This document shows positions 32,338-33,577 of a DNA stretch of 33,577 nucleotides, piece after piece (the stretch's first letter is position 1; each line of letters begins with the position of its first letter). Source of the DNA: Pseudomonas sp. ACM7 (GTDB lineage: Bacteria > Pseudomonadota > Gammaproteobacteria > Pseudomonadales > Pseudomonadaceae); the NCBI RefSeq assembly GCF_004136015.1, contig NZ_CP024866.1, forward strand, positions 6,089,772 through 6,123,348, in the 5' to 3' direction. Below the pieces are notes generated by a model. The model was not told where the DNA came from and ran no database searches. It saw nothing but the letters and a program-made list of their open reading frames with translations. The position numbers and the translations under genes were made by a program.

Positions 32338-33132
32338 ATGGGTTTTCTCGCCGGTAAGCGCGTACTGATCGTCGGTGTCGCCAGCAAGCTGTCCATCGCA
32401 TCCGGCATCGCTGCCGCCATGCATCGCGAGGGCGCTGAGCTTGCCTTCACTTATCAGAACGACAAACTCAAGGGTCGTGTCGAAGAGTTCGCACAAAGCT
32501 GGGGTTCCAACCCTGACCTGTGCTTCCCGTGCGACGTGGCCAGCGATGAAGAAATCGCCAAGGTTTTCGTTGAACTGGGCAAGAAGTGGGACGGCCTGGA
32601 CTGCATCGTTCACTCCGTCGGCTTCGCCCCGGGCGACCAACTGGATGGCGACTTCACCGAAGCCACCACCCGTGAAGGTTTCCGCATCGCTCACGACATC
32701 AGCGCCTACAGCTTCGTGGCCCTGGCCAAAGCCGGCCGCGAAATGATGAAAGGCCGCAACGGCAGCCTGCTGACCCTGTCGTACCTGGGCGCCGAGCGCA
32801 CCATGCCGAACTACAACGTAATGGGCATGGCCAAGGCTTCCCTGGAAGCGGGCGTTCGTTACCTGGCCGGCTCCCTGGGCCCGGACGGCACCCGCGTCAA
32901 CTGCGTATCGGCTGGCCCGATCCGCACCCTCGCCGCTTCCGGCATCAAGAACTTCCGCAAGATGCTGGCCGCCAACGAAGCGCAAACCCCGCTGCGTCGT
33001 AACGTCACCATCGACGAAGTCGGCAACGCCGGCGCCTTCCTGTGCTCGGACCTGGCGTCCGGCATCAGCGGCGAAATCATGTACGTGGACGGTGGCTTCA
33101 ACACCACGGCCATGGGCAGCCTCGAAGAGTAA
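32338..33132 (+). CDS. fabI: enoyl-[acyl-carrier-protein] reductase (NADH), FabI
   Basis: The 264-residue SDR-fold enzyme performs the last reduction of each fatty-acid elongation cycle. It shows the FabI nucleotide loop ([15 protein letters not shown]), [14 protein letters not shown], and the catalytic Tyr-x6-Lys pair Tyr159/Lys166 (NYNVMGMAK). This is the triclosan-target type. A strong GAGAGGAG element precedes the ATG. It may be read from the nppABCD operon and also from its own promoter. A strong terminator follows. Confidence 0.98.
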
Positions 33133-33149
33133 TCTTCGGTCAGCCAATA

Positions 33150-33180
33150 AAAAAACCCGCCTCTTGAGGCGGGTTTTTTT
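33150..33180 (+). terminator. Rho-independent terminator of fabI
   Basis: The stem ACCCGCCTC / GAGGCGGGT (33155-33163, 33166-33174) with a TT loop is flanked by an A run and a T run of seven. It may work in both directions. Confidence 0.96.
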
Positions 33181-33212
33181 ATGCCTGCGATTTGTGGCCT
33201 GATGCAGACCCC

Positions 33213-33297
33213 CTGTGGGAGCGAGCTTGCTCGCGATTACGGAGTGTCAGTCGACATCAATTTTGAATGTCAGTCCGTCATCGCGAGCAAGCTCGCT
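33213..33297. repeat. REPIN interrupted by an IS110-family element
   Basis: The left REP is complete (33215-33237, GTGGGAGCGAGCTTGCTCGCGAT). The right, inverted REP runs ATCGCGAGCAAGCTCGCT (33280-33297) and then stops, where CCCACAG would be expected. The missing half should be found at the far end of the inserted element, outside the window. Confidence 0.9.
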
Positions 33298-33315
33298 TGT
33301 ATGTTTAGACTTGAA

Positions 33316-33480
33316 GGGGTGGGCGGGACTAAAAGCTCGATTCTGACTCTGACCAGTACAGACCGTGGGAGACTTCTCGTCCCGCCCTTTCTACCCAAAG
33401 CGCCGATAAGGAATTCATCGGTAAAACCGACGATAGAGGCAAGCCAGCGCAACGGTAGACCCCGACAAGCTCTTAAACCC
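33316..33480 (+). ncRNA. candidate IS110 bridge RNA
   Basis: This is the noncoding leader of the IS110 element. GGGCGGGAC (33321-33329) pairs perfectly with GTCCCGCCC (33379-33387), extended by GGGT/ACCC (33317-33320, 33393-33396). The 49-nt loop holds AAGCTCG (33333-33339) and GTGGGAG (33365-33371) on either side of a weak inner stem (TCTG/CAGA). AAGCTCG equals the target left half, and GTGGGAG is the reverse complement of CT plus CCCAC, the target right half. A second part (33403-33475) has a CCGAT/ATCGG hairpin and a region with ACAAG (33465-33469), complementary to CT-TGT at the element's left end, as expected for a donor loop. Ends are approximate. The role follows the published IS621 model; expression is not shown by sequence. 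Confidence 0.7.
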
Positions 33481-33498
33481 TAGCTCCGAGGATTCGTC

Positions 33499-33577
33499 AT
33501 GACAATCCTTACTTCGCAGACGGTTGTTGGCATCGATATCGCCAAGGCTGAAATAGTTATCTATCGCTCCGACCTGC
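33499..33577 (+). CDS. IS110-family transposase/recombinase, N-terminal fragment (runs off window)
   Basis: Only 26 codons are visible: MTILTSQTVVGIDIAKAEIV and six more. VGIDIAK is the start of the DEDD RuvC-like domain of IS110 recombinases, with the first catalytic Asp in GIDIAK. GAGGA lies six bases before the ATG, a good ribosome binding site. The rest of the protein, including the C-terminal serine domain, is outside the window. Confidence 0.88.
   Translation, partial: MTILTSQTVVGIDIAKAEIVIYRSDL

Follow-up and report, generated by a model that had tools for sequence, protein, structure and literature searches.

At the end of a 33,577-nt stretch of the Pseudomonas sp. ACM7 genome (the window; C1:6089772-6123348 of a 6.6-Mb scaffold, genome G000) an IS110-type element interrupts a REP sequence. 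Very probably this is the left end of an IS621-like insertion sequence of the IS110 group, with a non-coding leader predicted to be a bridge RNA that targets REP sequences. The bridge-RNA reading is well supported. We observe the anatomy of the element, both of its junctions (for the window copy, synteny supplies the right one), a leader structure conserved in relatives, and covariation of guide and target. As judged from their sequences, guide and REP variant tend to change together across the relatives.

Anatomy of the element and its insertion site

A preliminary description of the window had named a broken REP, a 201-nt leader, a stem, two guide words and a recombinase that follows, and on direct reading all of these are borne out to the base. 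The inverted REP at the end of the window breaks after AAGCTCG-CT (position 33297), the IS110-type element starts at 33298, and a recombinase ORF follows the 201-nt noncoding leader with its ATG at 33499. The leader words AAGCTCG and GTGGGAG lie inside a 9-bp stem, in the order of a target-binding loop. The features are as follows.

33215 to 33236, + strand: first REP of the REPIN, GTGGGAGCGAGCTTGCTCGCGA (direct reading)
33281 to 33297, − strand: inverted REP, the second of the REPIN, interrupted by the element; it holds the left target ...GCAAGCTCG and the core CT at 33296-33297 (direct reading)
33298 to 33498, + strand: IS110 left end and leader, predicted bridge RNA, 201 nt (reading, fold, covariance model)
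33300 to 33305, + strand: TATGTT, candidate −10 box of an RE-LE junction promoter (by eye, consensus likeness only)
33321 to 33329, + strand: stem of the target-binding loop, 5' arm GGGCGGGAC (reading, pair counts)
33333 to 33339, + strand: left target guide AAGCTCG (reading, guide-target tests)
33342 to 33362, + strand: inner hairpin TCTGACT...AGTACAGA (100% of cells paired)
33365 to 33371, + strand: right target guide GTGGGAG, pairs with CTCCCAC (reading, guide-target test)
33372, + strand: A, fits the handshake position versus donor T
33379 to 33387, + strand: stem of the target-binding loop, 3' arm GTCCCGCCC (reading, pair counts)
33400 to 33403, + strand: stem of the donor-binding loop, 5' arm GCGC (pair counts)
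33409 to 33414, + strand: candidate left donor guide AGGAAT; the right end of the element is TAGAAT-CT
33440 to 33443, + strand: candidate right donor guide CAAG, would pair with CTTG of the element left end
33444, + strand: C, would fit the handshake position versus target G
33447 to 33450, + strand: stem of the donor-binding loop, 3' arm GCGC (pair counts)
33499 to 33577, + strand: IS110 recombinase, its first 26 residues from the ATG at 33499, MTILTSQTVVGIDIAKAEIVIYRSDL...; the rest lies in or beyond a 100-N gap

Dozens of similar REPINs are present in the ACM7 genome. The leader occurs in three copies with identical covariance scores, the match to the window leader spanning 33296-33460. 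All three IS110 copies are intergenic (judged by eye from ORF lists), and all have the same left REP half. The element has the long non-coding left end and the short right end that are typical of the IS110 group; in L022 and L023 the right core is separated from the stop codon by 29 nt. In these two loci short duplicated words, CGCTCCGCGCTCC and GACCTGCCCGACCTGC, stand at the edges of N gaps; they are probably gap-closing artefacts.

The right junction

The window stops at 33577 because an assembly gap of 100 N begins at the next base, and such a gap lies inside the recombinase gene in each of the three G000 copies. For the other two copies the right end reads ...CATAGAAT-CT-CCCACA. The presumed right junction of the window copy is CT-CCCACAGGG at G000:6277143ff, beside a recombinase C-terminus. 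It is assigned to this copy because the gene flanking it, which encodes a LysR substrate-binding domain, is found directly downstream of fabI in relatives L356, L368 and L371. The flank was matched in five of 29 downstream stretches of relatives, in L359 and L367 at a distance of ~1.4 kb. Across its own gap the window copy runs into the 3' end of an IS5-type transposase, and the right half at G000:6277143 follows a second gap, on the other side of which is the 5' part of an IS4-type transposase. Both gaps therefore join halves of unrelated insertion sequences. As scaffolded, a 153-kb block (G000:6123349-6276860) lies inside the IS110 copy of the window; synteny in relatives suggests that this is a misjoin, a misplaced block or a large insertion.

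The preliminary description had predicted that CCCAC would be restored at the far junction, and it is restored in all three G000 copies, in the window copy by synteny. These copies thus have the IS110-group trait of a CT core at both ends with the target restored once the flanks meet, one of the three by synteny.

The recombinase

The G000 copies of the recombinase can be read only at the N-terminus and in the C-terminal part as a result of the N gaps, and E55, D97 and D100 were read in relatives. Both PF01548 and PF02371 are present in the recombinases of all three relatives tested, and all three lie above the cut-off for NCBIfam NF033542 ('IS110 family RNA-guided transposase'). D13, E55, D97, D100 and S235 are invariant in nine relatives, and were matched to IS621 residues by eye. 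The relatives therefore have the DEDD RuvC plus Tnp-serine recombinase that is a trait of the IS110 group. A profile of the nine recombinases finds IS621 (8wt6) and ISCro4 (9t56), and by this profile comparison the proteins are relatives of both.

Structure of the leader and its conservation

The window leader (33298-33480) folds with z = −3.5, and none of 200 shuffled sequences is as stable. The predicted fold has a target hairpin, a donor hairpin and a long stem that closes both loops. An alignment of 30 leaders (A2) was rejected for pair counts, because it misaligns a stem arm between the two leader classes, and the counts therefore use the 20 class-A leaders only. In these, 97.4% of cells are paired, compared with at most 48.2% when slid. 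There are 19 double-change cells, against 6.6 in shuffles, in three pairs, one each in the outer stem (C-G/U-A), the inner stem (U-A/C-G) and the donor stem (G-C/U-G/U-A). Neither the number of class-A pairs with a double change (3 versus 2.5) nor the number of pair types (5 versus 6.0) is above shuffles. Pair 34-89 is unpaired in 10 of the 20 leaders, two donor-loop pairs are each unpaired in one, and pair 26-96 has gaps in 11. RNAalifold applied to the 30 leaders predicts 24 pairs, ten with double changes, with a weak covariation term.

The covariance model built on class A recovers ten leaders of class B, all with E values of 5e-27 or below, together with leaders in Nevskiaceae (2e-20) and Methyloversatilis (9e-11). 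A structured RNA conserved in the leader had been expected from the preliminary description, and the structure is indeed kept in relatives with some compensatory changes. The outer stem may be placed in more than one register, since a search for the longest stem often pairs its G-rich arm differently (AAGGGGTGGG with CCCGCCCTTT). A minority of trials with shuffled arms of equal make-up also gave nine pairs or more, and the length of the stem is therefore weak evidence by itself. No Rfam family was found for the leader: all 30 matches in 32800-33577 are below gathering scores, and nearly all overlap a terminator-like hairpin at ~33151-33180. The search of G000 for orphan leader RNAs gave none, the model reporting the three leaders only (E 0.001; 150 of 1,967 candidates scored).

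A stably folded leader, as found in the window, might chiefly be a regulatory 5'-UTR or antisense region of the transposase mRNA and contain no guide. This would resemble ISPpu9 (Asr9, Ssr9), which also lies in REPs and is described as having a 244-nt 5'-UTR and an antisense sRNA (PMC8450116). Yet regulation leaves unexplained that the loop bases follow the flanking REP variant, as described below. The two roles are not exclusive, and we regard a purely regulatory leader as very unlikely.

Relatives of the element

The relatives of the window element are mostly in Pseudomonas, where 83 of the 398 genomes have leader relatives (no more than two places were scored in each). We gathered 144 elements with 73 distinct leaders from loci; four of the 144 rows were dropped, leaving 140 for the guide test. 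Elements were found using CTTGTATG, the inner-stem motif and GT[GA]GGAG, a search that presupposes TGTATG, the left core and the greater part of the right guide. Right ends were found using AATCTCC, GAATCTCC or GAATTTCC, which likewise presupposes AAT, the greater part of the core and the initial CC of the right target. Loci L021-L223 gave no new element in 62 of 203 cases (repeats already taken, truncated copies, no left end). A simple REP pattern fails in 13 of the 140 left flanks; by eye most of these are other REP-like palindromes, L107 and L130 being exceptions. No plasmid or phage copy was found among 2,213 plasmid and 21 phage records, where every best match has <60% identity.

Copies in Methyloversatilis (L125-L128) lie in REP-like palindromes, as judged by eye, and left and right guide words both match in a Nevskiaceae copy (L123). 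The clade therefore extends beyond Pseudomonas. At L048 (G065) two copies lie in the same direction 1,352 bp apart, each with an open 316-residue recombinase frame.

The guide agrees with the flanking REP in relatives

We compared the left guide of each element with its own left flank. The best register places the guide two bases before the inner hairpin and gives 5.73 of 7 matches, with at most 2.85 of 7 in any other. For all 140 rows the agreement is 5.73 of 7 compared with 4.77 when shuffled, and no shuffle in 20,000 is as good. The result is the same for the 71 distinct leaders (5.73 of 7 versus 4.70; 0 in 20,000) and for the 24 distinct guides (5.50 versus 4.17; 0 in 20,000). The agreement is carried by the variable columns −6 (53 of 71, with 32.3 expected), −3 (58 of 71; 34.9) and −2 (60 of 71; 47.0). 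There is a small gain at −4 (59 of 71; 51.1) and −5 (54 of 71; 48.1), and almost none at −7 (58 of 71; 56.0) and −1 (65 of 71; 64.2). Guides of the AGCTCGT type match the flank only if shifted by one base.

The right guide GTGGGAG is accompanied by CCCAC in 108 of 110 rows and by CCTAC in two. GTAGGAG is accompanied by CCTAC in both rows that have a right end (L123 and L183); L182 lacks one.

On a tree of the recombinases built from 73 rows, the 67 rows that were used require a minimum of 25 guide changes. We then counted phylogenetically independent pairs. Summed over three positions, which are not independent of each other, guide and flank change the same way in ~13.0 pairs and the opposite way in 1.3, with no difference in 6.7. 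The corresponding values are 4.5, 1.0 and 2.5 at −3; 4.5, 0 and 2.5 at −6; and 4.0, 0.3 and 1.7 at −2. No single position is significant in this test.

The preliminary description had counted copies with different leaders at the same REP site against its reading. Relatives with different leaders do occupy the same CT of REPs, but because their guides tend to follow the variant in which each element lies, this occupancy is support rather than refutation.

The recombinase protein alone might recognize the REP palindromes, the REP-like words of the leader being incidental or serving another use. ISPsy8, for which two ORFs and 3-bp repeats are reported, inserts into REPs as well (PMC1525189). In each genome scored in the next section the copies share one guide, and presumably one protein, so targeting within a genome cannot separate protein from guide. 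ISPsy8 is not known to be an IS110 element. Against recognition by protein alone, the base-for-base agreement occurs in one fixed register only, and the right guide shifts together with the right target in L123 and L183. In addition, across the 25 or more guide changes on the tree the targets change more often the same way than the opposite, though not significantly by position. We consider targeting by protein alone less likely still than a purely regulatory leader.

The guide and the REP make-up of the host

Five REP variants were counted in 60 genomes, and the counts were transcribed by hand into the test script. In G000 the sites with an intact CTCCCAC comprise 444 AAGCTCG, 656 AAGCCCG, 32 AGGCTCG, 7 AAGCCAG and 1 AAGCCGG. 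Out of 115 full copies in 61 genomes, 64 copies in 31 genomes could be scored; the other 51 have the guide (35), the guide and the site (11) or the site (3) outside the five variants, or lie in an uncounted genome (2).

Fifty-two of the 64 copies lie in the exact REP variant of their guide and 12 in another, where 30.2 matches are expected from the host frequencies (P ~5e-14). Copies within one genome are not fully independent, and we therefore repeated the test with one copy per genome. This gave 25 of 31 against 17.0 expected, with a median P of 2e-4 and 0.02 for the worst draw. Where the variant of the guide is a minority of the host REPs, 20 of 29 copies lie in that variant compared with 4.1 expected. 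In G124 this is so for six of seven copies with a variant making up 10% of host REPs, and in G366 for five of eight with a variant making up 2.4% of those counted. All three copies of G000 itself lie in AAGCTCG (p 0.39) though AAGCCCG is commoner, giving P = 0.059, or 0.023 when a truncated copy is added.

In 20 of 31 genomes the guide corresponds to the most frequent REP variant of the host, compared with 8.0 when shuffled (0 of 20,000 as good), in a shuffle that ignores kinship; one genome differs between these 31 and those of the within-genome test (G138 for G185). This correspondence, in elements and REPs that are both common to related hosts, would also arise if the guide mirrored the common variant by shared ancestry without directing insertion, yet the copies in minority variants (20 of 29 against 4.1, including those of G124 and G366) make that the least likely of the alternatives. 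That guides change repeatedly and often spell the commonest REP variant of the host is possibly new. We found no paper on guides following host REP variants in a literature search that was thin on subscription papers and did not cover preprints.

The predicted donor loop and a candidate junction promoter

In the predicted circle TATGTT stands 17 nt after TTGCCC of the right end, and relatives have the same fixed spacing. At this spacing the two hexamers share three and four of six bases with the consensus in 44 of 59 junctions, and four and four in 12 of 59, a likeness to the consensus only. The base following the right guide is A in all 59, where the opposing donor T was a requirement of the right-end finder. 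In 56 of 58 the first CAAG of the donor region has C as its next base, which would face target G, though some of these CAAG sequences lie at other places. The A and C are those that the handshake positions of IS621, as outlined in PMC11208158, would predict. Across the 59 leaders with a right end the donor ends (TAGAAT and TGTATG) are invariant, much of which the finders required, and the complementarity between donor guides and ends is only 4-6 nt.

Truncated pieces of the element

Truncated or mutated left ends number 34 in the genus sample (G000:4380488 (L004), L134-L149, L152, L195, L216-L220, L241, L255-L263, L272 and L280). In 26 of the 34 the sequence is identical to an intact left end over the first 23-33 nt, counted from the core C; the identity ends in or close to GGGGTGGGCGGG, at the base of the target-loop stem. 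In L149 and L152 the match resumes past a mismatch or indel. These ends retain the left REP half and CT and have lost the right REP half, and another REP starts within 65 nt of the core in at least five of the 34. No cargo element was found behind them, there being no right end within 111 to 1,807 nt downstream; L143 has one partial right-end motif, lacking CAC.

Right-end relics are found at G000:2010689 (L315), L288, L300, L309, L317 and L318. They have ~10-30 nt of the right end (by eye) followed by CT-CCCACA, and the left REP half is gone. Other right-end pieces still include some of the gene. Pattern counts in ten genomes having no intact copy gave as many left as right pieces in four (G057, G177, G327 and G242) and unequal numbers in six (G149, G240, G276, G136, G330 and G113).

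DISCUSSION

We infer expression, circle formation and RNA-guided strand exchange by analogy with IS621. An excised circle would be transcribed from a promoter at the RE-LE junction, giving the leader as the predicted bridge RNA. In the first loop AAGCTCG would pair with the bottom strand to the left of the core, and GTGGGAG with the core and right side of the top strand. Together the two guides would direct the DEDD/serine recombinase to AAGCTCG-CT-CCCAC within REPs. The second loop is predicted to pair with the ends of the element itself, GAAT-CT-TG, at the RE-LE junction, and the recombinase and RNA would exchange strands at CT.

The closest comparison is with IS621, a member of the IS110 group with a bridge RNA that targets E. 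coli REP sequences (PMC11208160; PMC11208158). The likeness includes a leader upstream of the gene, the CT core, a REP target and a related recombinase, together with a target loop whose two guides enclose an inner hairpin, and a second, donor loop (PMC11208160). It extends to a candidate junction promoter and a fitting handshake base (PMC11208160; PMC11208158). The recombinase, however, is only distantly related (profile E 8e-32), the target words are different, and here no separate 5' stem-loop is predicted before the target loop, with a long stem closing both loops.

ISPpu9 and ISPpu10 of P. putida KT2440 are IS110 elements found at one REP position with a 2-bp repeat (PMC1525189; PMC8450116), and a bridge RNA of ISPpu10 is named in a figure legend of PMC11208160. 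The AG repeat of ISPpu9 is CT on the other strand, like the core here (PMC1525189). Both are REP-sited IS110 elements of Pseudomonas, likened to the present one by description. No orphan RNA resembling the ssr9 of ISPpu9 was found in G000 using the model (E 0.001, 150 of 1,967 candidates scored). ISPa11 of the IS1111 group has a seekRNA with a P. aeruginosa REP target (PMC11187229), where an RNA from the non-coding end guides insertion into REPs, as predicted here. IS1111 elements are described as having the RNA downstream of the gene and longer subterminal repeats of 7-17 bp (PMC11208160), whereas here the leader is upstream and only a 4-bp CATA/TATG pair is seen by eye around the junction. 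We therefore rejected membership of the IS1111 group.

Both bridge RNAs with natural covariation (PMC11208160) and REP-targeting IS110 elements (PMC1525189; PMC8450116) are already in print. An RNA-guided transposon using REPs had been singled out in the preliminary description as a striking arrangement. The match of guide and REP stands, but the novelty was overstated, since IS621, ISPpu9 and ISPpu10 are known from these accounts to target REPs.

The present work adds a widespread Pseudomonas clade in which the guide, the target and often hundreds of unoccupied near-identical sites can be read together. Sequence comparison can thereby measure how specific natural targeting is, how far mismatches such as U-G wobble are tolerated and how guides evolve, and the clade is a source of bridge recombinases whose guides match REPs for work in laboratory Pseudomonas. 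The evidence is evenly balanced on whether the element and the REP population of its host are in a moving match, the guide being repeatedly rewritten to the locally common variant. If they are, drift of host repeats would reprogram a natural RNA-guided recombinase, and the clade would hold a natural record of guide evolution.
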